IMG/VR virus record: IMGVR_UViG_3300032144_000031
Location: 1 to 38,694 of that record
DNA from: a virus
Length of the DNA stretch: 38,694 nucleotides
Strand: one strand, 5' to 3'
The notes under the pieces are model-generated. The model saw only the letters and a program-made list of their open reading frames with translations. It was not told the DNA's origin and searched no databases. Both the position numbers and the translations under genes were made by a program. Shown in pieces: positions 5,503 to 32,970 of this stretch (its first letter is position 1; each line of letters begins with the position of its first letter).

Positions 5503-6423
5503 ATGATGCCTCAGCCCGGATTGCGGGCACTGAACCTGCAAAAGGTTCGGTTGCTCGACCGCCTAGCCGCTGTTAAGCCTGAGCTAGCCAACGAGATTCG
5601 TAATACGAAACTTGATTGGTTTAGGATGCGAACGCGTAATGCGGTCGAGGATGACGAAATGGATCTGCCGGAAATCGATACGAAAGACGCGCAGGTCGGA
5701 GAGGTTTACATTTATGATGAGATCGGGGGTTCGTTTGGTGTCGGTGCGGTTGATTTCATCAATCAGCTAAATGAAATCGATGCACCCGAAATCACCATTC
5801 GGATCAACTCCCCGGGTGGAATGCTCATCGAGGCTATCGCCATGGCGAGTGCAATCGCACAACACCCGGCGCATATCACTACGCGGGTAGATGGTATCGC
5901 GGCGAGTGCTGCCAGCATCATTGCAATCTCTGGCGATAAGTGCGAGATGATGGATGGATCGCAGATAATGATCCATCGTGTCATGTGCGGTATGCAGGGC
6001 AACGTGGATGACTGCGCGGAAACTATGGCGTGGCTCAAAGAGCAGGATATGAACGTTGCCAATATGTATGCGAAGCGTACGGGCATGGATCCGGAGGAGT
6101 GCCTAGCACTCATGAAGGCCGAAACGTGGATGTTCGCGCAAGAGGCAATTGACATTGGTCTCATGGATTCCATGTATACGCGCCTTAAGCAGGGGACAGA
6201 AATGCCGCCCGGTGAAGAGGAGGATCCGGAGGAAGAGCCTCCCGCCGATGCAGAAGACGCGGCGCCGGAAGAGGATGAGGAGGAAGTTCTTAATTCTCTA
6301 ATGCATATGCCTCACCGCCTTACCAACCGTGGGTATCGCTACCTAGGTAGGAATAAGGCACCGGCCCCTAAGCCTGTCCGGTCTACTAATAGCTTTGCCG
6401 ATCTAGTCGACGCATGGAGGTAA
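5503..6423 (+). CDS. Head maturation protease, ClpP/S14 type
   Basis: 306-residue prohead protease that cleaves scaffold and capsid N-termini during head maturation. The ClpP-like core spans about residues 65-215. It shows INSPGG (101-106, oxyanion region), the nucleophile in GIAASAAS (Ser135) and the catalytic histidine in MIHRV (His158). A Glu/Pro/Asp-rich linker (about 225-265) leads to a C-terminal segment that may act as scaffold or be removed. ATG 5506 is an alternative start. The capsid gene follows after 4 bases. Confidence 0.93.
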   Translation: MMPQPGLRALNLQKVRLLDRLAAVKPELANEIRNTKLDWFRMRTRNAVEDDEMDLPEIDTKDAQVGEVYIYDEIGGSFGVGAVDFINQLNEIDAPEITIRINSPGGMLIEAIAMASAIAQHPAHITTRVDGIAASAASIIAISGDKCEMMDGSQIMIHRVMCGMQGNVDDCAETMAWLKEQDMNVANMYAKRTGMDPEECLALMKAETWMFAQEAIDIGLMDSMYTRLKQGTEMPPGEEEDPEEEPPADAEDAAPEEDEEEVLNSLMHMPHRLTNRGYRYLGRNKAPAPKPVRSTNSFADLVDAWR

Positions 6424-6427
6424 TTCA

Positions 6428-7786
6428 ATGCCTAAAGTGATTCCTGTTCCGACCACTACTGAGGAACTGCACGAGCAGTTGACCGACCGAGCCACCATGC
6501 GTGAGCTTATGGCGGACCCTGAGAGGTTCGCCGATCACATGGAGAGTGCCGTCAACGCACGCCTTAAGGACGGCGCGATTAACGGTCAAGTCACTGAGCA
6601 GACCGAAAAGTTTATGATTGATTGGCTGCGCAATCACCAGGGAGACACGGACGGTGTTGCTCAGCGCCTCAATCTGGACAACCCAAACGCTCGCGCACGT
6701 ATTCGGCCGAACACGGTTTACAACCGTAACGCGCTAGGCGCGAAGCATGACAAGATGTTCGCCAGTTCTGCTGACTTCCTGCACGCTATCTCGGAGCACT
6801 CTTACAAGGGTGAGAATCTGTCGCGGCAGCTTGACACGCTGAAGAATGATCTTTCGTCGGTCAAGCCGTCGGATGGTGGATTCCTCATTCCGGAGATTCT
6901 TCGCGCTGAGCTACTGCGTGTGGCGCTAGAGAATTCCATTGTGCGTTCGCGTGCCCGTGTAATCCCCATGGACAGCCTTACGGTGCCGTTCCCCATGGTG
7001 GACAGCACGTCCAACGTTTCCAGCGTGTACGGCGGTGTCACGGGCTACTGGACGGAAGAGGGCGCGACCCTTACGGAGTCTCAGCCGCGATTCGGCCGGA
7101 TCGAGCTAAAGGCCAACAAGCTAGTTCTCTACACTGAGGTTCCTGACGAACTACTTCGGGACGCGCGTCCGTCCATGGAAGCGTTCATCAATGACATCTT
7201 CCCTGAGGCAATTGCTTGGTTTGAGGATGTCGCATTCATCGTTGGCGGTGGAGTGGGTGAGCCGCTTGGCTTCCTCAACTCTCCTGCTGCGATTTCGGTA
7301 ACGCGTTCCACCACTACGGCGGGTAACAATGTTGAGTGGGTTGACATCGCGGGAATGTACGCGCGAATGCTCCCTCAGTCGCTTAACCGTGCTGTCTGGG
7401 TTATCTCTCCGGACGTCATGCCTTCCCTTCTGACCGCTACCCTCCCGGGTGGTGGCCCTATCATCGTGAGCACGGGTGGCGGATTCCCTGACGGTACTAA
7501 CGCGCCTCAGCTTTCGCTGTTGGGTCGCCCGATTGTTGTTTCGGAAAAGGCGCGTGCCGTTGGTACGGCTGGTGATATCAATTTCGTTGACTTCGGTTTC
7601 TACCTGATTGGTGACCGGCAGGCAATGAGCGCGCGACAGAGTGAGGATTTCCGTTTCTCGTCTGACGTTACCGCGTTCCGGGTTATCGAGCGCCTTGACG
7701 GACGGCCCTGGCTCGCCAGTGCTATTACTCCGCAGAATGGCGGAGCGACGCTTAGCCCGTTCGTCAAGCTGACCACCGCCGCCTAA
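6428..7786 (+). CDS. Major capsid protein, HK97 fold
   Basis: 452 residues. The N-terminal 120 or so residues are helical and charged, like the delta domain that scaffolds HK97-type proheads and is removed by the protease. The HK97 core begins near residue 140 (DGGFLIPEILRAELLRVA) and includes LYTEVPDELLRD, the WFEDVAFIVGGGVGEPLGFL P-domain segment and GRPWLASAITP at the end. Codon use differs from the early genes: 3 of the first 18 leucine codons are CTA. It is presumably the most highly expressed gene here. Confidence 0.95.
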   Translation: MPKVIPVPTTTEELHEQLTDRATMRELMADPERFADHMESAVNARLKDGAINGQVTEQTEKFMIDWLRNHQGDTDGVAQRLNLDNPNARARIRPNTVYNRNALGAKHDKMFASSADFLHAISEHSYKGENLSRQLDTLKNDLSSVKPSDGGFLIPEILRAELLRVALENSIVRSRARVIPMDSLTVPFPMVDSTSNVSSVYGGVTGYWTEEGATLTESQPRFGRIELKANKLVLYTEVPDELLRDARPSMEAFINDIFPEAIAWFEDVAFIVGGGVGEPLGFLNSPAAISVTRSTTTAGNNVEWVDIAGMYARMLPQSLNRAVWVISPDVMPSLLTATLPGGGPIIVSTGGGFPDGTNAPQLSLLGRPIVVSEKARAVGTAGDINFVDFGFYLIGDRQAMSARQSEDFRFSSDVTAFRVIERLDGRPWLASAITPQNGGATLSPFVKLTTAA

Positions 7787-7808
7787 TCTAGGAAAGGGAC
7801 AGAAAACT

Positions 7809-8315
7809 ATGAAGGGTCTAGGCAACGTTTTTGATATCGGCAGTGCATTCGTGCCTGTTGATTTCAATACCTCTGACGCGGCTACGGGTCACCGTATCCA
7901 CCTACGCAATTACGAGTCTGTCGCGTGTGTGCTATTCAAGGGTGCTGGCACTGCCGGTGCTGACCCTGTTGTAACTGTGCAGGAACACACGGCGGCTACC
8001 GCAGGCACTTCCGCATCCCTCGCTGTGATCACGGAATTCTATTCCAAGACTGAGACCACTCTTGATGGTGATGAGGTGTGGGTCCGTACTACGCAAGCAG
8101 CGGCAGCCACCGCGAATATGGGTGCCACCTCTGCTGAGGAGGAGGGTATTCACGTAATCGAGGTTGAGGCTTCCTCGCTCAGCGCCGGTTACGAATGGGT
8201 TTCTTTCAATATCGCGGCTACCGTTGCTAACGCACAGCTAGTTTCCGGGCTTTACATTCTCACCGGACTTAAGATGCAGCGTGAGCCTACGCTACTCGCA
8301 CAGCTAAACGCGTAA
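7809..8315 (+). CDS. Structural protein after the capsid gene, possible decoration protein
   Basis: 168 residues, beta-rich, Ala/Thr/Val-rich, with no membrane segment or cysteine cluster. AAAGGGACAG upstream gives a good ribosome site. A gene of this type directly after the major capsid gene is often a capsid decoration or head-stabilising protein; that role is inferred from position and composition. Confidence 0.75.
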   Translation: MKGLGNVFDIGSAFVPVDFNTSDAATGHRIHLRNYESVACVLFKGAGTAGADPVVTVQEHTAATAGTSASLAVITEFYSKTETTLDGDEVWVRTTQAAAATANMGATSAEEEGIHVIEVEASSLSAGYEWVSFNIAATVANAQLVSGLYILTGLKMQREPTLLAQLNA

Positions 8316-13400: not shown

Positions 13401-14838
13401 GATCAATATTACCGTTGGCGCTAATGAAACCGCCTCAGATGTCATTTCGGGAGTTGGGAAGGCTACCCAGCGAACCGAACGTGTCATTGTGCAATCTATG
13501 GGATCCACCGAAGAGGCGTTCGATACCGCCGTACGTGGCGCTAGCAAATTCGGTTCAGTCATGGATACCACTCAGGGCGCCGCAGGGCAGCTATCAGAGG
13601 GTATTGATGGAGTAGGGCAGGCCTCACAGGCTATTAGCGACATCATGAGCCATAGTGCCCGTAAGGCAGAAGATCTAGCGCGGGCACAGACGGACGTGGA
13701 ACAGGCAGCACAGGATGCCTCTCAGGCTGTTGAAGATATGAATCAGGCAATGCGGGATCAGGCGCAGTCCGCGATTGATGCAGAGCAGGCAGACCAGGAT
13801 GCGGAACAGGCCATTTTGGATAAGGCCAAAGCGCAAAAGGATCTCAATGCTGCAATCAAGGAATTTGGTCCCAATTCTGATGAGGCACGGCAGGCGCGTT
13901 TGGATATGGCACAGGCGGAAATCGACCACACACAAGCGGTAGAGGATGGCCTACAGGCGGAGCGAGACGCGCAACAGGCAGCGCTAGATAGTAAGCAGGC
14001 ACTCATTGATCAGAAATCGGCAGCGACCGAACTAACCGCCTCACAGCGAGAGCTAGCGAGCCAAAGCTCAATTCTCACGCAGATGTCGGATTGGGCTGGA
14101 ATGCTATCCGGTGTGCTTTCCGGTCTAGTCGGCATCATCGGCGCGGTTACCGCCGTGCAATGGCTATGGAATGTCGCCATGACGGCTAACCCTATTGGCC
14201 TGATCATCGTGGCTATCGGCGCTCTAATTGCGATTATCGTCCTGATCGCTACCAAGACTGATTGGTTCCAGCGCCTGTGGAAAGCGATTTGGAGCAAGAT
14301 TGGCGATCCCGTTAAGGCTACGTGGAATTGGATCAAGAATACGACTAGTTCATTCATCAAGTGGATTACTAATGTATTCAAGAATCTACCTAAGTCAATC
14401 GCTGGCGCATTCAAGAGCCTAGCAAAGATCATTACCGCGCCATACCGTGCTGCGTTCAACGGCATTGCGTGGGCATGGAACAATACCATTGGGCGTATCA
14501 GTTTCTCGGTTCCGTCGTGGGTGCCTGGTATCGGTGGCGCATCATTCAGCGTGCCTAGAATTCCGTCGCTAGACGTAGGTACCGATGAGGTTCTTAAAAC
14601 TGGTCTAGCAATGATCCACAAGGGTGAACGTATTACGCCCGCTAAAGCGAGTGCTTTCACAGGGCGGGACTCTGGCCGTATGGGTGGTCATGCCGAACCG
14701 CTAGAGATTGTTGTTCGACTAGAGATGGACGCGACGGATAGCAAGATCATGGAACCGATTCATGAGAATATCCGTGCCTACGTGAAGCGGGCAGGCGGGA
14801 ATAAGGTACAGGTTGCTTACGGCAGGGGGCCTGCATAA
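13390..14838 (+). CDS. Tape measure protein
   Basis: 482 residues, short for a tape measure. Residues about 75-210 are a nearly continuous Ala/Gln/Asp-rich coiled coil. Residues about 228-294 hold hydrophobic segments (GMLSGVLSGLVGIIGAVTAV and GLIIVAIGALIAIIVLI) typical of the part that may enter the host membrane. Trp-rich WNWIKNTTSSFIKWI repeats follow. The GTG at 13390 lies inside the chaperone gene and follows GAGG. By the rule of about 1.5 Angstrom per residue, a tail near 70 nm would be expected. Confidence 0.88.
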   Translation: MANEINITVGANETASDVISGVGKATQRTERVIVQSMGSTEEAFDTAVRGASKFGSVMDTTQGAAGQLSEGIDGVGQASQAISDIMSHSARKAEDLARAQTDVEQAAQDASQAVEDMNQAMRDQAQSAIDAEQADQDAEQAILDKAKAQKDLNAAIKEFGPNSDEARQARLDMAQAEIDHTQAVEDGLQAERDAQQAALDSKQALIDQKSAATELTASQRELASQSSILTQMSDWAGMLSGVLSGLVGIIGAVTAVQWLWNVAMTANPIGLIIVAIGALIAIIVLIATKTDWFQRLWKAIWSKIGDPVKATWNWIKNTTSSFIKWITNVFKNLPKSIAGAFKSLAKIITAPYRAAFNGIAWAWNNTIGRISFSVPSWVPGIGGASFSVPRIPSLDVGTDEVLKTGLAMIHKGERITPAKASAFTGRDSGRMGGHAEPLEIVVRLEMDATDSKIMEPIHENIRAYVKRAGGNKVQVAYGRGPA

Positions 14839-17720
14839 TGGCATTCCCTAGTGATGTCCTTGGTACGCATGTGCAATTGCAGATCGACGGCACATGGACT
14901 GATGTCATGCGCTACGACGATGACACCAAAATTCTGCAAAGAGATGGAATCAGTATCAAGCGAGGGGCTAGCGGGCTACAAGACCGCACACCGCCTGGTA
15001 TCTGCACATGGAAATGGCAGGACCCTAACGGCATCTACAATAACGAAAACCCACGCTCGCCGTACTACGGCCTGCTGCCACGTAACACCCCCGTGCGTGT
15101 CTACGTGCCGCGTGAAGCGCCGAGCCTATACATGCTCAGGCGTGACGATGGTTCGCGGGCGCAGACGACGGATAAGGCTGCCCTAGACATCACTGGCGAT
15201 ATCGAAATTCGTATAGATTTCGAACCTCGCCGCTTCACTCGCTGGATTAGCGGTCAGAATCGTGGAATGCTGCTAGCCAGCAAATATAACGATACCACGC
15301 AACGATCGTGGTACGTCCGCTTTGGTGAGTCGGCACTCAATGCTAGCTTGACGCATCTAGCATTCATTTGGTCTACCAACGGCACGAATAGTGTTCTTGC
15401 GGACTGTACCGAGTATCTGCCGACAACGGGCAGAATTGCTATTAAAATCACGATGGATGTTGATAACGGGGCAGGCTCGCGGGAAGTCAAATTTTGGACG
15501 TCGACAACAGGCATTGACGGCACCTATACACAGCTAGGCACTACGGTTACCGGGAGCACGACGAGTATTAATTCAGGTTCCGCCAACCTAGAACTAGGTA
15601 CTATGAATGGGGGAATGGATCAACACGAACTAACAAGTAGCTATATCAATTATGAGGGACGGATCCATCATTTCCGCCTATATAACGGGATCGGCGGCTC
15701 ACTAGTAGCTGATGCTGATTTCGGAGCGCAAGACATCGGCGATACATCATTCTCTGATGGCCTAGGTAACACATGGACCATTGAGGGCACAGCGGAAATC
15801 ACGGATGCAGATTACCGCTTCCATGGGGAATTGAGTGCTCCGGTACTAAAGCCTAAGCAGAGTGCCGACGGCGTAGGCACTGATATTGTGATTGAGGCTG
15901 AGGCAGGCGGTATTCTTCGCAGGCTGAGTACGAATGAGACCCCACTACAGTCACCCATCTATTTGACGTTCAGCACGTACGGTCCTAGTGGGTGGTGGAC
16001 AGGCGAGGAATCTGACACGGCCGACTCGACTACCACCGCTAGTAGCGGCTCACCGGGCGGTAATCCTGCACGCATTTCTGATATCGAATTCGTAGGGTTT
16101 GATTCAGAAATCCCCGGTTCAGCTGGTGTAATGGAATTGGGCGCTGCCGGATCATTCACGGGGATAGCTACAAACGTAACCGCAACTAGTGAATCACATT
16201 TTTATATGTTCTTTAAGTTCCCGTCTGTGCCAGTTGCCGATCAATATCTAGTCAACTGGTATAGCACAGGGACGGGCAAGCGGTACAGTCTCATGATAGG
16301 TACGCTTTCGTACCATCTTCGTATCTATAGTGATACTGGAACCCTACTTGCGGAAAACAATACTTCGTTCGGTTCAGGTGCCGAGCCTGATAACTGGATC
16401 GCCTACCATTCTAGGCAGTCTCAGAATGGTGGTAATATCGATGTCACGCATGAGTGGCACGCGGTAGGTACCGACCTGTACTACACAGCGAGTGTTACGT
16501 CATTTGCTGGCACTATGGGGCGGCCGGATAAGGTAACCATCAATCCTGGCTCGGGTTGCGATGGCGTACGGTTCTGCCATGTGATGATGGCGCCTACGAT
16601 CGGTTTGGAATTCTTCGCGGGAACGCCAACGACCAATATTGTTAACTTTGCGCGTGCGTTCGCAGGAGAATACGCAGACGATCGTTTTACCCGCATATGC
16701 ACGTTGCTAGGTGTTGAACCTAATATCATTGGATTCCGTAGTGCCATTAGCCAGCAAATGGGGCCGCAACCTATTGATACAGGTATCAACATTCTGTATG
16801 AGTGCGCAGAGGTCGATGGCGGAAAGATAATAGAGGCGAATGATCGCCCTGCGTGCCTCGAATTCCGCCCTATTCGCTCGCTATACAATCAGTACGGAAT
16901 GGAGTTGGTATGGAGCGACCTAGCGGAAGGGCTAGAAGCTACGCCAGACGATACCGATATCGCTAATGATATTAGCAGTAAGCGTGCAGCGGGTGGGACC
17001 GCGCGGTCTACATTGCAGTATGGCGCAATGTCGATTCAGGCTCCGCCTGATGGTATCAATCTAGTACCTGATGGACCCACATTTAATTGCTATACCGTTG
17101 AACAATTGGTACGCCTGACGGATGCCGCACTATTCCGCCGCACGTGGCCTAGTGCACGCTACCCCGCATTGGTAGTGCATATGCATCATCCTACCTTTGC
17201 TGGTGATGCAGATAAATTTTTGCTGGCGCAAAAGACAGAAGTTTCCGACATCATTAGGGTGACTGATCTGCCGCTATTCATGGCGCCTGATGAATTGGCA
17301 TTGATGGCTACGGGCATTAGTGAAGAAATACACGGCCAGGAATGGACAATTGCATGGGCACTGACGCCATATGGCCCATTCGAGTCGTCTGAAAGTCAGA
17401 CTGTCCCGGGAGATAAATACTCTTCATACGTTGCAGCGCATACGACAATTGATGGTGTTGTTCAGCAGCAACTGAATACGGCAATTGATGCTGATGATAC
17501 AAGCATTAGCGTCAAAACGCTAAGCGGACCGATCATAGTTGAGGGTTCCGTTAGCTGGCAGATTAAAATCGGAGGTGAGGTTATGGACGTAACGAATGTT
17601 AGCGGGTCTAGCTCGCCGCAAACGTTGACAGTCGCGCGTGGGGCGGTTGGCGGTTTTGCTTCAGCGCACGCGGAGAATGACTATGTTCGGATCTTCCCTG
17701 AGCTATTTGCGAGGCTGTGA
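14838..17720 (+). CDS. Large minor tail protein with LamG-like modules
   Basis: 960 residues, the largest complete gene here. The N-terminus (VQLQIDGTWTDVM to RTPPGICTWKWQDPNG) fits the distal-tail/hub type of actinophage minor tail proteins. Two concanavalin-like beta-sandwich regions follow (about 105-320 and 430-600), suggesting sugar binding. Residues near 615-860 resemble a hub-like core. The last 80 residues carry KIGGEVMDVTNV and VARGAVGGFASAHAENDY, related to repeats in the connector at 9139. TAATG links it to the tape measure gene. Probably a baseplate hub or receptor-binding component. Confidence 0.8.
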   Translation: MAFPSDVLGTHVQLQIDGTWTDVMRYDDDTKILQRDGISIKRGASGLQDRTPPGICTWKWQDPNGIYNNENPRSPYYGLLPRNTPVRVYVPREAPSLYMLRRDDGSRAQTTDKAALDITGDIEIRIDFEPRRFTRWISGQNRGMLLASKYNDTTQRSWYVRFGESALNASLTHLAFIWSTNGTNSVLADCTEYLPTTGRIAIKITMDVDNGAGSREVKFWTSTTGIDGTYTQLGTTVTGSTTSINSGSANLELGTMNGGMDQHELTSSYINYEGRIHHFRLYNGIGGSLVADADFGAQDIGDTSFSDGLGNTWTIEGTAEITDADYRFHGELSAPVLKPKQSADGVGTDIVIEAEAGGILRRLSTNETPLQSPIYLTFSTYGPSGWWTGEESDTADSTTTASSGSPGGNPARISDIEFVGFDSEIPGSAGVMELGAAGSFTGIATNVTATSESHFYMFFKFPSVPVADQYLVNWYSTGTGKRYSLMIGTLSYHLRIYSDTGTLLAENNTSFGSGAEPDNWIAYHSRQSQNGGNIDVTHEWHAVGTDLYYTASVTSFAGTMGRPDKVTINPGSGCDGVRFCHVMMAPTIGLEFFAGTPTTNIVNFARAFAGEYADDRFTRICTLLGVEPNIIGFRSAISQQMGPQPIDTGINILYECAEVDGGKIIEANDRPACLEFRPIRSLYNQYGMELVWSDLAEGLEATPDDTDIANDISSKRAAGGTARSTLQYGAMSIQAPPDGINLVPDGPTFNCYTVEQLVRLTDAALFRRTWPSARYPALVVHMHHPTFAGDADKFLLAQKTEVSDIIRVTDLPLFMAPDELALMATGISEEIHGQEWTIAWALTPYGPFESSESQTVPGDKYSSYVAAHTTIDGVVQQQLNTAIDADDTSISVKTLSGPIIVEGSVSWQIKIGGEVMDVTNVSGSSSPQTLTVARGAVGGFASAHAENDYVRIFPELFARL

Positions 17721-20481: not shown

Positions 20482-20554
20482 GTCGCTATAGCCCAATGGC
20501 AGAGGCAACGGCTTTAGGTGCCGTATAGTGAGGGTTCGAATCCCTCTAGCGACA
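20482..20554 (+). tRNA. tRNA-Leu(UAG)-type tRNA
   Basis: 73 bases fold as a cloverleaf. The acceptor GTCGCTA pairs with TAGCGAC; there is a short D arm (GCC/GGC). The anticodon stem ACGGC/GCCGT holds loop TTTAGGT with anticodon TAG (20515-20517). The T arm GAGGG-TTCGAAT-CCCTC is canonical. The discriminator is A and CCA is not encoded. The anticodon reads CTA, hence leucine; G37 and A73 agree with leucine identity. The variable loop is only five bases (ATAGT), whereas bacterial tRNA-Leu normally has a long class II arm, so charging may be unusual. CTA is heavily used in the early genes. Confidence 0.88.
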
Positions 20555-20556
20555 CG

Positions 20557-28162: not shown

Positions 28163-28777
28163 ATGTACGGGATTTATAATCTCAATGAGTCCGACGATTC
28201 GCAGGCATGGAACTACCACGAAATTCGCAGCCACCGCAAACCGCGTAAGAAGTATCCGCGTACCCGCCGTGTCTCCCTACTCCTAGCCGCTGTGATCGCC
28301 GTAGGCACGCTAACGCCGTTGTCTGAGGGGGTAACTCATCCTCTCCCACGTGCTGAGGCCTCTACAGGCATTGAACGGATTGAGCCGCGTATTGCCGCAA
28401 CCGTTAGCCGTACCGCGCGTGTAGCGTCCGTGCGAACGACTAAGATCAACAAAGTAATCAATTACGCTATGGCTCAGCGTGGGGATCGATACAGGTGGGG
28501 TGCCGCAGGACCTAACGCATGGGATTGCTCCGGTCTCGTTAGTGTGGCATTCAAAAAGGGTGCCGGAATTAAGCTACCGCATTTCACAGGCGGTATTCAG
28601 AAAAAGGGTAAGCGCGTCGCTAAGAAAGATCTAAGGCGCGGCGACATAATCTTTCCTCAGCGTGGGCACGTCGGTATCTATCTAGGCAATGGCAAAATGA
28701 TTCACGCCTCTACTAGTAAGGGCAAAATCGTTGTGGCCGATGTTTACGGATTCTATACAGCGCGGCGCATTCTGTAA
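28163..28777 (+). CDS. Membrane-anchored or secreted NlpC/P60 peptidase
   Basis: 204 residues. The basic N-terminus and hydrophobic segment at about 37-50 (RVSLLLAAVIAVGTLTPL) form a signal peptide or anchor. The NlpC/P60 domain (about 92-204) shows WDCSGL with catalytic Cys122, GHVGIYL with His169, and MIHAS with His181 as third residue. These enzymes cut peptide stems of peptidoglycan (gamma-D-Glu to diaminopimelate). It lies in the early region, far from the lysis genes. It could loosen the wall, aid release, or alter the host surface during infection. Confidence 0.9.
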   Translation: MYGIYNLNESDDSQAWNYHEIRSHRKPRKKYPRTRRVSLLLAAVIAVGTLTPLSEGVTHPLPRAEASTGIERIEPRIAATVSRTARVASVRTTKINKVINYAMAQRGDRYRWGAAGPNAWDCSGLVSVAFKKGAGIKLPHFTGGIQKKGKRVAKKDLRRGDIIFPQRGHVGIYLGNGKMIHASTSKGKIVVADVYGFYTARRIL

Positions 28778-28795: not shown

Positions 28796-29224
28796 ATGCT
28801 CAGTCGATTTCTAGCCAGACGAGGCAGGAAAGTAGCATCAGGAGAAGTGACGTACCTTATTAGGGAGCTTCCGCCTATCGATCAGAATGATATCCAGTAT
28901 GCCGCCATAAATACCAAGGACCTTGCGGTATGGGCTGACAGATACCTCTCTGCTATGGAAACGGAAGAGTCAAAGAACTGGTGCCGTTGTGAATGGATCG
29001 TTCATCCTGATGACACCAGAGTCAAGCCGGGCACCTGTAGGGAGTGTGGGGGTCCGCCTAGTGCAATCGTGCACCATGGCCTGCCTGAGGATTTCGAGCA
29101 GCGCCTAGCGCATCATTACAAGGGCAAGCGAATGCGGCGTGGCGATCAGGCGAGCGATTGCCCGGTGCATACCCGTGAAGGATTCCTAATCTATTTCTTT
29201 ACATGGGTATTCGAGCAGCGATGA
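28796..29224 (+). CDS. Hypothetical zinc-ribbon protein
   Basis: 142 residues from ATG 28796, chosen because AGAGGGAGAGGGA precedes it; TTG 28778 would include this site. NWCRCEWIV and GTCRECGGPPS give paired cysteines (C-x-C and C-x2-C) of a likely zinc ribbon, with SAIVHHG following. It overlaps the uracil-DNA glycosylase start by ATGA. Not recognised; probably part of the replication operon. Confidence 0.7.
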   Translation: MLSRFLARRGRKVASGEVTYLIRELPPIDQNDIQYAAINTKDLAVWADRYLSAMETEESKNWCRCEWIVHPDDTRVKPGTCRECGGPPSAIVHHGLPEDFEQRLAHHYKGKRMRRGDQASDCPVHTREGFLIYFFTWVFEQR

Positions 29225-29823
29225 GTGCAGCGAACATCTATGATGCATTGTTCCGCCTAGAAGAGGAACACACAGACGCCCGTGGCGTATTCCCGGAGTT
29301 GTCTACTAGCCGCTACGTGCCGGGGGAAGGTAACGCGACTAACTGTCAAGCGTTCATTGTTGGTGAGGCACCCGGCGCGCAAGAGGATGCAGCGAGTAGA
29401 CCGTTTGTCGGTCCTGCCGGTAGCGTGCTACGGCAACTAATGGAGTTGGCAGGGTTCTCATTTGCTGCTGAGAATTACTGGCTCACCAACGTTATTAAGT
29501 TCCGGCCACCTAGAAACAGGAATCCAACGGAAACAGAAATCCGTGCGTTCCGCCCGTTGCTACTAACGGAATGGAAGATAGTCGGATCACCTCAGCTAAT
29601 CATTCCAATTGGCGGAATCGCACTACGTGCCATCGTAGGAAGATCGATATCAATTCTCCGTGCTGCCGGTAAGTGCCATACGTACACGACACGCATGGGC
29701 CGTGAGATAAGTATCTGGCCGATGGTTCACCCGTCATTTGGTTTGCGCAATCCGGCAGCACAGCCGTTGCTAGAACAGGATTGGGAAAATCTGGCAGCGT
29801 GGCGGAGGATTCAAAGTGGGTAG
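29221..29823 (+). CDS. Family-4-like uracil-DNA glycosylase without Fe-S cysteines
   Basis: 200 residues from the ATGA-coupled start; ATG 29203 is also possible. Motif 1 is GEAPGAQED (48-56), followed by RPFVGPAG and TNVIKFRPPRNRNPT; motif 3 is MVHPS (168-172). These are signatures of family 4/5 UDGs that remove uracil from DNA. Family 4 enzymes usually bind [4Fe-4S] through four cysteines. Here the two central ones, in KCRPP and in the later C-R-P segment, are Phe94 and Phe110, and no N-terminal C-x2-C is present. The cluster is probably lost. It may repair phage DNA or act on host DNA. Confidence 0.85.
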   Translation: MSAANIYDALFRLEEEHTDARGVFPELSTSRYVPGEGNATNCQAFIVGEAPGAQEDAASRPFVGPAGSVLRQLMELAGFSFAAENYWLTNVIKFRPPRNRNPTETEIRAFRPLLLTEWKIVGSPQLIIPIGGIALRAIVGRSISILRAAGKCHTYTTRMGREISIWPMVHPSFGLRNPAAQPLLEQDWENLAAWRRIQSG

Positions 29824-29831
29824 GTTGCGTA

Positions 29832-30203
29832 ATGAAATTCACTGATGCGCGATTGCTTGTGACAGGCTCACGAGGCTGGACTGATGGCGGTACTATCTGG
29901 CACGCATTACGTATGTTCAAATCACAATGCGCTAATCAGCCAACACTAATCAGCGGTAAATGCCCAACGGGTGCTGATGCAATTGCAGAATACGCGGCTA
30001 AAGAATTAGGCTATAGACTAGAACTATACCCCGCAGACTGGGCACGATATGGTAAGCGTGCTGGATTCATACGCAATGAGGTAATGGTAAATGCAAATCC
30101 TACACACTGCTTTGCATTCATTGTTGAGAATTCACCCGGTGCTAGCCACTGCCTAGCGCTAGCTAACAAGGCTGGAATTCCTGCAAAGGATTTCCGATGC
30201 TGA
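29832..30203 (+). CDS. SLOG-family (DUF2493/YspA-like) protein
   Basis: 123 residues. LLVTGSRGWTD, ISGKCPTGADAIAEYAAKE, YPADWARYGKRAGFIRNEVM and AFIVENSPGASH are the blocks of the DUF2493/YspA branch of the SLOG fold. The GSR and GxxxGAD loops bind nucleotide-type ligands such as NAD or ADP-ribose products. Start chosen at the first ATG after the glycosylase stop. Many phages carry one near DNA metabolism genes; its substrate is unknown. Confidence 0.85.
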   Translation: MKFTDARLLVTGSRGWTDGGTIWHALRMFKSQCANQPTLISGKCPTGADAIAEYAAKELGYRLELYPADWARYGKRAGFIRNEVMVNANPTHCFAFIVENSPGASHCLALANKAGIPAKDFRC

Positions 30204-31390
30204 GGATCAAGGACACCCTAGGCGGCGACCCAATCGAATTCAATTACTGTGAGACCTATGACGACCGTATGGAAATGATAGAGTTTGCTAATGCGCACAC
30301 AGCTTTAGGCATGGATACCGAATCAACCGGCATCAATTGCTATAAGCCAGGGTGGCAGCTACGCACATTCCAAGTTGGCAACTGGAATACCGCCTATGTG
30401 GTGCCTGCTAAGTATAAGACAGTTATTGACGTCATCATTAGGCTTCCTCATGTTAGATGGATTGGTCACAATGGGCCGCATGACATTCGGTCAATTGACT
30501 GTTGGCTAGGGGAAGATACCGGCGTCACCTGTGCTGGCGAGACCTACATTCCCGCACACCATGCCGACTCACGGAAACGAGACGAGGGCGGTATTGGGCA
30601 TGGCCTCAAAGAGCAGGCAATCGCACACGTTGCTCGGGATGCTGGCAAGTGGGAGGCAGCACTTAAGAAAGCATTCAAAGAGATCGAGATACCAATCCCC
30701 GGCGCTGTCTATAAATCAGGGCCACGCAAGGGATTGCCTAAGGTACGGAAAGCGAAATTGTCTGAGGGTTGGGCACTCATCGACCCTACGCATCCTGCGT
30801 ATATAGCGTACGCGGCGGCTGACCCTGTGCTCACATATCGCCTATGGAAATTCTATCAGCCGGTAGTTCGCCAGAATCATGAAATGTATAAATTCGACAT
30901 GCGTGTGCAGGCGGTAGCGGACACCCTGCATAGGCGCGCCATCCTACTAGACGATAGGTACACGTCACGGCTCAGTGACGCGTATGAGCAGAGGGCGGCG
31001 AAGTTCATTGCTCGGGCGGCTGAGTATGGCTGCACAAATATCAATAGTGGTCAACAGGTGGCAACTACGCTCTTGGAGCTAGGGGCGGTACTTACCGCCC
31101 GCACTGAGAAAGGCGCATTCAAGACGGATAACAAAGTCTTGCGTGCCCTAGCAGCACTCTATGATGACAACCATTCGCCAGTAAAAGATTTCATTCATTG
31201 TGTGCTAGGTGCAAAGCAATTGCTTAAGCGGAGGTCTAGCTATACAGAATCGATGCTAGAGGAAATGGATTCGGATGGGCGAGTGCACCCGAGTATCAAT
31301 ACGCTCGGAGCGCGCACTACACGAATGAGTGTAAGCAGCCCACCATTGCAGCAACTACCTACGGCGAACAGAGAGGAAGATGCGGAATGA
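30197..31390 (+). CDS. polA: DNA polymerase I, N-terminal part (3'-5' exonuclease to thumb)
   Basis: 397 residues. Exo I is GMDTESTG (Asp40, Glu42), Exo II WIGHNGPHD, Exo III YIAYAAADPVLTYRLW. After the exonuclease come the thumb-type helices and the family A element INTLGARTTRMS, PPLQQLPT. The frame then ends, exactly before polymerase motif A. The missing palm and fingers are encoded at 32125 after three small genes. The following gene overlaps by ATGA. The truncated protein alone cannot polymerise, so it must pair with the other part. Confidence 0.92.
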   Translation: MLRIKDTLGGDPIEFNYCETYDDRMEMIEFANAHTALGMDTESTGINCYKPGWQLRTFQVGNWNTAYVVPAKYKTVIDVIIRLPHVRWIGHNGPHDIRSIDCWLGEDTGVTCAGETYIPAHHADSRKRDEGGIGHGLKEQAIAHVARDAGKWEAALKKAFKEIEIPIPGAVYKSGPRKGLPKVRKAKLSEGWALIDPTHPAYIAYAAADPVLTYRLWKFYQPVVRQNHEMYKFDMRVQAVADTLHRRAILLDDRYTSRLSDAYEQRAAKFIARAAEYGCTNINSGQQVATTLLELGAVLTARTEKGAFKTDNKVLRALAALYDDNHSPVKDFIHCVLGAKQLLKRRSSYTESMLEEMDSDGRVHPSINTLGARTTRMSVSSPPLQQLPTANREEDAE

Positions 31391-31758
31391 CGACACTGCC
31401 TCGCATGGCACGTGAGATCATCGACAACGGGCCGTACGTGCCCGGCCAGATGCTGCCCCCTACGATAAAGACTCCGCAGGCTGCACTAATGAATGAGATG
31501 CGAGAGTTTCTGCTAGCTAGGGGACCTAATACCGATATTACCGGATTCGCCATCATCAAGGACATGTGCAAGGAAGATCTGATTGATGAGATTCTGGCTA
31601 ATCAGAGAAAGCATTTGCTGACCTGTGAGGTTGCGGACCTTAAGGGCAGCGTTGTTGCCTACCGGGTGGAACGGTACAAGGAAAGCCTTATCTCTGAGGC
31701 GGGAATCAAGGTCACACCGGGCATCTTCGGTTCGGCCAAAGTAGAGGACGAGGATTGA
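31387..31758 (+). CDS. Inserted gene 1 within the split polymerase
   Basis: 123 residues. Proline-rich start (RMAREIIDNGPYVPGQMLPP), helical core (AALMNEMREFLLARG, KDMCKEDLIDEIL), acidic end (KVEDED). It overlaps the polymerase N-part by ATGA and the next gene by TGATG. There is no LAGLIDADG, GIY-YIG or HNH motif, so nothing marks it as a homing endonuclease. Function unknown; may be a bridging or accessory subunit. Confidence 0.75.
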   Translation: MTTLPRMAREIIDNGPYVPGQMLPPTIKTPQAALMNEMREFLLARGPNTDITGFAIIKDMCKEDLIDEILANQRKHLLTCEVADLKGSVVAYRVERYKESLISEAGIKVTPGIFGSAKVEDED

Positions 31759-31988
31759 TGGCCAGGCACAATACAGCGCTAGATAAGCGAGTCGAGGAAT
31801 ACCTAGACAGCAAGGGCATTAGTCCAGATATGGTACGCACAGATTACGTGATCAGGCGTGAGGGCGGAATGACCCTGATCGACATAACACTGTACGCCGA
31901 AGATTTCATGGACGAACCGCCGAACACTGATCCGGATCTCTTTACGCGTCGCCCAAAGTATGGTTATCCGACAGAGGACGAGGACTAA
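31758..31988 (+). CDS. Inserted gene 2 within the split polymerase
   Basis: 76 residues. Acidic, with MTLIDITLYAEDFMDEPPNT and an end rich in Asp/Glu that resembles the end of its upstream neighbour. TTG 31755 is an alternative start. Its stop overlaps the next start (TAATG). Not recognised. Confidence 0.7.
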   Translation: MARHNTALDKRVEEYLDSKGISPDMVRTDYVIRREGGMTLIDITLYAEDFMDEPPNTDPDLFTRRPKYGYPTEDED

Positions 31989-32128
31989 TGGACGAAGCGA
32001 TTAAGGCACTAGAAGAGTTGCATGAGCGTGTTAAAAAAGAATCATGGCTTGACGGCGGCACACAGCATGCGATTCTCGCAGGAATTCGTATGTCTATCCG
32101 CCACCTGCAACGCTCGGCTAAACAGTGA
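31988..32128 (+). CDS. Inserted gene 3 within the split polymerase
   Basis: 46 residues, all helical (MDEAIKALEELHERVKKESW), with a basic C-terminus. TAATG overlap upstream and GTGA overlap with the polymerase C-part downstream; the tight chain supports translation. Function unknown. Confidence 0.6.
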   Translation: MDEAIKALEELHERVKKESWLDGGTQHAILAGIRMSIRHLQRSAKQ

Positions 32129-32970
32129 GACTGCTAAGCGCAGACACCATTAGACGTTGCCTGATAGCCGACCCCGGTCACTCAATGCTCACAGCCGACT
32201 TTGACCAAATTGAGTTGCGCATCATCGCGGCTCTTGCTGGCGAACAGGTAATGATCGACGCGGCAAAACGCGGGGAAAGTCTGCATAAGACTACTGCGGC
32301 TCAGATGTTTGGGGCGGATTATACGCCTGACGAATATCGCTATTCAAAGAATCTCAATTTTGGTTGGGCGTTCGGTGGTGGTGCTAAAACGCTAGCGGAA
32401 CAAACAGGCCTACCGATGGGCAAGTGTGCTGAGCTAATTCGTTCATTCGAAAATCAGTTCCCGGCGCTTAGGGCATTCAAGCAGCGGGAACAACAGAAGA
32501 TTCTCGATCAGGCGCTTAGTAGCGGTCAGCTAAAGGCCTATAGGGAATTGCGTGGCCGAATGCGCTACCTGAGGCAAGACACAACAGAAGGGCGGCGAGC
32601 ACGGTACGCACTACAGATTCAGATCGACCGCCTGATGTACGGGAAGGTAGGTTACGCAACTACGCCATTCGGTAGGCGGCTACTAGTAGAGGCGGATAAA
32701 GCGTATAAGGTAGTGAATTACAAAGTTCAGTCAAGCGCTGCCGACGTGCTTAAGTATGCGTTGCTAGACGTTATGGCTGACCCTGAGCTAGAGCCCACGG
32801 TGTTGCTACCCATTCACGATGAGATTCTAGGGCAGGCACCTAAGGGCAAAGCGGAGTACATAGCACAGCGGTACGGCGAGGTAATGACTCGTGACTTCAT
32901 GGGCGTTCCTCTTACCGCCTCAGGCAAGGTTTATGGGAAGAGTTGGGGCCATGGGTACCGGAAAGAATAG
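32125..32970 (+). CDS. polA: DNA polymerase I, C-terminal part (palm and fingers)
   Basis: 281 residues from GTG 32125 (GTGA overlap). DTIRRCLIADPGH leads into motif A TADFDQIELRIIAALAG. Motif B is RYSKNLNFGWAFGGGAKTLA, with the NFG phenylalanine at the dNTP-selecting position. Motif C is LLPIHDEILGQAP. All catalytic acidic residues are present. It lacks exonuclease and thumb, which are encoded at 30197. The two parts join without loss at a loop before motif A, so a working polymerase could assemble from two chains. Confidence 0.93.
   Translation: MRLLSADTIRRCLIADPGHSMLTADFDQIELRIIAALAGEQVMIDAAKRGESLHKTTAAQMFGADYTPDEYRYSKNLNFGWAFGGGAKTLAEQTGLPMGKCAELIRSFENQFPALRAFKQREQQKILDQALSSGQLKAYRELRGRMRYLRQDTTEGRRARYALQIQIDRLMYGKVGYATTPFGRRLLVEADKAYKVVNYKVQSSAADVLKYALLDVMADPELEPTVLLPIHDEILGQAPKGKAEYIAQRYGEVMTRDFMGVPLTASGKVYGKSWGHGYRKE

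Follow-up and report, generated by a model that had tools for sequence, protein, structure and literature searches.

The 38.7-kb phage record IMGVR_UViG_3300032144_000031 of IMG/VR, which was analysed over its whole length of 38,694 nt and is called the window here, contains genes for an HK97-type capsid, a portal and a terminase, and a run of five genes in which two parts of a family A DNA polymerase, PolN and PolC, enclose three small genes (Table 1). Successive genes of this run overlap by 4, 1, 1 and 4 nt, with the junction sequences ATGA, TGATG, TAATG and GTGA in that order. In agreement with the original prediction, PolN and PolC are intact genes, the three small genes lie where they had been placed, and no junction overlap falls outside 1 to 4 nt. 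The in-frame codon usage of all three small ORFs fits that of the window (+0.20 per codon), whereas their other forward frames score -0.08 to -0.31 per codon on the same scale. An NlpC/P60 peptidase gene (28163-28777) lies inside the replication module, away from the tail and lysis genes, and this placement is kept in relatives. Upstream of the split polymerase, a few genes away, is a gene of the uracil-DNA glycosylase family (29203-29823) that most relatives keep. Single tRNA genes are present in the window (tRNA-Leu, 20482-20555) and near the polymerase of the relative L088 (8549-8622).

Table 1. Genes and segments of the split polymerase locus, in window positions.
Feature	Position	Strand	Match or occurrence
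PolN: 3'-5' exonuclease, thumb and first palm segment; 397 aa	30197..31390	+	Pfam PF01612 and PF00476
PolN tail, residues 367-397: ARTTRMSVSSPPLQQLPT plus an acidic 8-residue end; contains R376	31295..31387	+	
Small gene 1: 123 aa; C-terminal ~80 residues are helical family F1	31387..31758	+	
Small gene 2: 76 aa from ATG (77 from TTG at 31755)	31758..31988	+	Homologue found in one gap only, that of L011, the nearest relative
Small gene 3: 46 aa; its stop lies in the GTGA overlap with PolC	31988..32128	+	Homologues in the gaps of L024 and L026, weakly in L018
PolC: palm and fingers, motifs A, B and C; 281 aa; GTG start	32125..32970	+	Pfam PF00476
PolC residues 122-172: lineage-specific helical insert	32488..32640	+	13/13 split, 0/70 intact polymerases

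The DNA_pol_A model (PF00476; cut-off 34.3 bits) matches PolN with its positions 5-137 (60 bits) and PolC with its positions 138-380 (144.5 bits), and the exonuclease model PF01612 matches the start of PolN (31.4 bits; cut-off 23.6). Since the PF00476 coverage of the two proteins is contiguous, no part of the polymerase is missing, and every element at the break is present in an alignment with intact actinophage polymerases, as expected from the earlier view that nothing had been lost there. The residues of all the motifs previously assigned to the two genes were found: those of the exonuclease motifs DxE, NxxxD and YxxxD on PolN (D40, E42, D96, Y205 and D209) and those of polymerase motifs A, B and C on PolC (D25, E30, K75 and H231-D232-E233). 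The counterparts on PolC of the catalytic residues D705, K758 and D882 (Klenow numbering) of motifs A, B and C are conserved. The AF2 model of PolN has a mean pLDDT of 85, and VIA-align places its residues 3-395 on residues 326-685 of Klenow (1kfs) with a Z of 17.2. The AF2 model of PolC (pLDDT 81) matches KlenTaq in Foldseek (E 4e-11), starting on the KlenTaq palm. The break lies at Klenow P680/V681, counted on the E. coli sequence, where the homologous part of PolN ends and from which PolC continues with V681. PolN R376 is the counterpart of Klenow R668, an Arg that contacts the primer, and is kept in 13/13 split and 70/70 intact polymerases. Since the R668 counterpart is on PolN and motifs A, B and C are on PolC, a mapping supported by the structural alignment, the active-site residues are divided between two chains. 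Substitution of R668 with Ala weakens matched-primer extension (PMC3347538). The motif B position that is usually Tyr (Klenow Y766) is PolC residue 83 (about 32371), and it is Phe in 8 of the 13 split and 3 of the 70 intact polymerases.

A search with the Sak4-like recombinase of the window as query gave 22 relatives, and all those with a full polymerase region share the break. A PolC profile search added two further split cases, L037 and the distant L088 (44% identity), together with about 70 intact actinophage-type polymerases, each in a single ORF, and a PolN profile search gave nine more uninterrupted ORFs and no additional split case. No relatives were found in a scan with the helicase as query, and a scan of genome contigs returned bacterial Pol I only and no prophage with a split polymerase. 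The identical break is thus present in 12 other IMG/VR metagenome contigs, giving 13 split genomes with the window. In a tree from which the junction and insert columns were excluded, all 13 split polymerases fall into a single group (SH-aLRT 100) against the 70 intact ones, which were gathered by similarity and are therefore not a random sample. Each of the 13 records holds only two DNA_pol_A pieces, PolN and PolC. Three close pairs of genomes give a pN of 0.13-0.20 against a pS of 0.66-0.80, for PolN and PolC alike, codon saturation limiting the dN/dS estimates, and no split sequence that covers the exonuclease and polymerase residues has lost them. The distances of PolN and PolC correlate with a Spearman coefficient of 0.63, calculated without a control gene, which shows co-inheritance only. 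The explanation that PolN and PolC are halves of a decaying pseudogene or the product of an assembly error is refuted by the strong constraint, by the retention of all catalytic residues and by the 12 independent contigs, because of which the break is not due to chance or to an assembly fault. The split polymerase is an old, inherited trait of the lineage and not damage. This fits the organised, translation-coupled operon originally proposed in place of recent damage.

The PolC start, which was assigned by conservation in some relatives, is conserved as M-[KR]-L-L-S in most split genomes. It overlaps the final 4-20 nt of an upstream ORF of at least 45 aa in 13/13 genomes, some of these ORFs being short and without homology support (for example, in L015 and L022), compared with 19 of 428 internal start codons (4.4%) that overlap such an ORF in the control. 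PolC is mostly without a Shine-Dalgarno site, and its leader pairs less strongly with the 16S tail than do the leaders of 26 window genes (p 4e-4). The median is no better than background, and individual leaders, such as that of L015, pair to some extent. Because the PolC start overlaps the upstream ORF and the ribosome-site pairing is weak, we infer that PolC is made by coupled translation through reinitiation. Both chains would then come from one message, on which the ribosome would terminate on the last small gene and restart on PolC. Readthrough or frameshifting that fuses PolN to PolC was rejected, as the frame offsets vary among 0, 1 and 2 and the gaps contain stops. A split intein was likewise rejected: PolN ends 8 residues past LQQLPT and PolC starts at the extein position, too tightly for intein parts to fit.

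A self-splicing group I or group II intron carrying ORFs would restore a single polymerase frame by splicing. Such elements occur in phage polymerase genes, and this possibility was raised for a similar layout by the authors who described phage MEP401 (PMC10580990). No Rfam match at gathering or permissive thresholds was found in the window, nor in the 12 split relatives, and the gap of the window folds no better than its shuffled versions (z -0.6). The gap of the window is fully coding, and among the 13 split genomes, in which gaps range from 266 to 1599 nt, the two shortest, 266 nt in L023 and 311 nt in L014, are taken up by an ORF of 85 aa and one of 113 aa, respectively. In addition, the gap content is non-homologous between genomes, a conserved PolC start is not needed for splicing, and PolN ends with a short tail and a stop in every genome. 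The intron, formerly regarded as the main alternative, is extremely improbable in view of these data. A homing endonuclease as the cause of the split, as in Aeh1 and phage 25, was also considered and rejected, no such Pfam or PHROG match being found among the gap genes of the window and seven relatives.

The genes in the gap differ between relatives. L018 and L026 carry related genes in a different order, and a homologue of small gene 3 lies directly 3' of PolN in L024. A YspA/SLOG-type gene precedes PolN in the window (29781-30203) and inside the gap in L017 (15345-15719), and a weaker relative of it is found inside the L024 gap (14741-15229). Since its position differs between genomes, genes move into and out of the gap. 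A gap gene common to L013 (15431-15820) and L014 (12609-12950) encodes a VapB-like antitoxin domain (PF23719), and no adjoining toxin gene was recognised. A tblastn search for the small genes in named phages gave no credible match. The best reading of these comparisons is that most of the small genes are cargo that can be exchanged, the gap having become, after the split, a site of small-gene gain and loss.

Only F1 recurs widely. Of the three inserts to be sought in relatives, the F1 part of small gene 1 was found in 10 of the 13 split records, each with one copy and none outside the gap, whereas genes 2 and 3 are present in few gaps. No convincing family match was obtained for F1 in Pfam or PHROG, and its assignment to Rho_N, suggested by a weak match of one member (E 8e-4), was rejected with the other eight members unmatched. 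The original prediction that the small proteins bridge the two chains is not supported for the exchanged middle genes, and for F1 as a third subunit, holding the halves together or regulating their assembly, it is unlikely. Such a role would be consistent with the restriction of F1 to the gap and with no F1 being found in the loci around the 70 intact polymerases. F1 was not found, however, in L014 (an 18-kb fragment), L024 (37.7 kb) and L088 (33.1 kb), records that may be incomplete, and it is probably not obligatory. The difference between L014, without F1, and its sister L013, with it, makes a requirement for F1 in assembly unlikely, with some doubt as L014 is a fragment. F1 also diverges faster than the polymerase, its identity between the window and L011 being 40% against 69-75%.

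In the model of PolN alone, confidence is high as far as residue 366, and residues 367-397 are disordered (pLDDT < 50). Invariant residues are enriched in this tail, with 13 of 24 in residues 367-390 against 93 of 397 overall (p 7e-4), and the simplest reading of the model is that residues 367-390 fold onto PolC. The region of the PolC insert is 46-51 residues long in the split polymerases against eight in 67 of the 70 intact ones (range 4-15) and 5 in KlenTaq, so that a helical insert of ~40 residues is present in every split polymerase and in no intact one. The insert region is helical in the AF2 model of PolC (helices 133-147 and 154-171) and could add contact surface. A three-part polymerase, in which PolN and PolC dock by means of the PolN tail and the PolC insert and F1 controls when or how the halves join, thereby switching proofreading during infection, is quite doubtful.

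There is also the explanation that PolN and PolC act apart, as a free exonuclease and a polymerase that lacks proofreading. The fold of PolN does resemble stand-alone DnaQ-like nucleases (ExnV1, Z 21.5; NrnC, Z 18.6). However, the thumb and R376, Q385 and P388 are invariant on PolN, and a free exonuclease would not need them, while PolC alone would be without a thumb and without the R668 counterpart. Separate action is therefore very unlikely. With both halves under constraint and the catalytic residues kept, the locus very probably encodes a natural two-polypeptide phage DNA polymerase of the Pol I type, assembled non-covalently and produced by coupled translation, a two-chain polymerase having also been the favoured original prediction. 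PolN would contribute the thumb, the exonuclease for proofreading and the first strand of the palm, on which the primer-contacting Arg lies; the palm and fingers with the catalytic aspartates would come from PolC. The two proteins would dock without covalent joining as the PolN tail, disordered alone, folds onto the PolC palm, and the two-chain enzyme presumably replicates the phage genome. A single split event at the P680/V681 loop in the ancestor of the lineage very probably accounts for all 13 cases, the PolC insert having arisen together with the split or after it.

Few enzymes have been studied as intensively as family A polymerases, all well-studied members of which, to our knowledge, carry the thumb, palm and fingers on a single chain. 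The two-chain layout is rare for this family. In this lineage the palm itself would have been divided naturally and for a long time, the Arg that contacts the primer being carried by one chain and the catalytic aspartates by the other, and structural studies and the design of switchable polymerases could start from an enzyme that is already split. The locus would also show cleanly how the fission of a gene can be followed by the accretion of others, the second half of an essential enzyme being translated only after unrelated genes.

No report of this split-polymerase lineage was found in the literature searched, the coverage of which was incomplete. The single-chain Pol I of actinophages, such as Curtobacterium phage Moss, Microbacterium phage Caron and Arthrobacter phage Liebe, has the same domains and motifs and is 33-38% identical over both halves, but it is encoded by one ORF with 5-6 residues separating LQQLP and IRR, and with neither the helical insert nor inner genes. 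A split family A polymerase has been described in the Methylophilales phages MEP401 and MEP402 (Zobellviridae), for which the authors left a possible intron open (PMC10580990), a question now answered for the lineage of the window. As in the window, the exonuclease and the N-terminal polymerase part form one gene and the rest another, with a small unknown gene between them. The split polymerase region of MEP401 (L193) spans 6111-8221. Its two parts are separated (SRYGE / MILNADAK) immediately in front of motif A, about 18 residues beyond the break of the window, its polymerase is only distantly related to that of the window in sequence, and its 77-aa middle protein has no significant match to F1 in a profile search. 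Because the breaks are about 18 residues apart and the middle proteins are unrelated, the two splits look independent. The T4-like Aeromonas phages 25 and 44RR have a split gene 43, the products of which, 43A and 43B, co-purify and are active on co-expression (PMC2988022). The replicative phage polymerase 43A/43B is made in two chains with an intervening sequence or gene, a layout like that of the window; it belongs to family B, however, and a homing endonuclease or an untranslated spacer separates its parts, whereas the family A halves of the window enclose several cargo genes, with no homing endonuclease found among them. In jumbo phages, a split minimal DNA polymerase III alpha is predicted to form a two-protein catalytic core (PMC7824862). 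This enzyme belongs to family C and its genes are far apart, whereas both halves of the window polymerase are encoded in one gene run.
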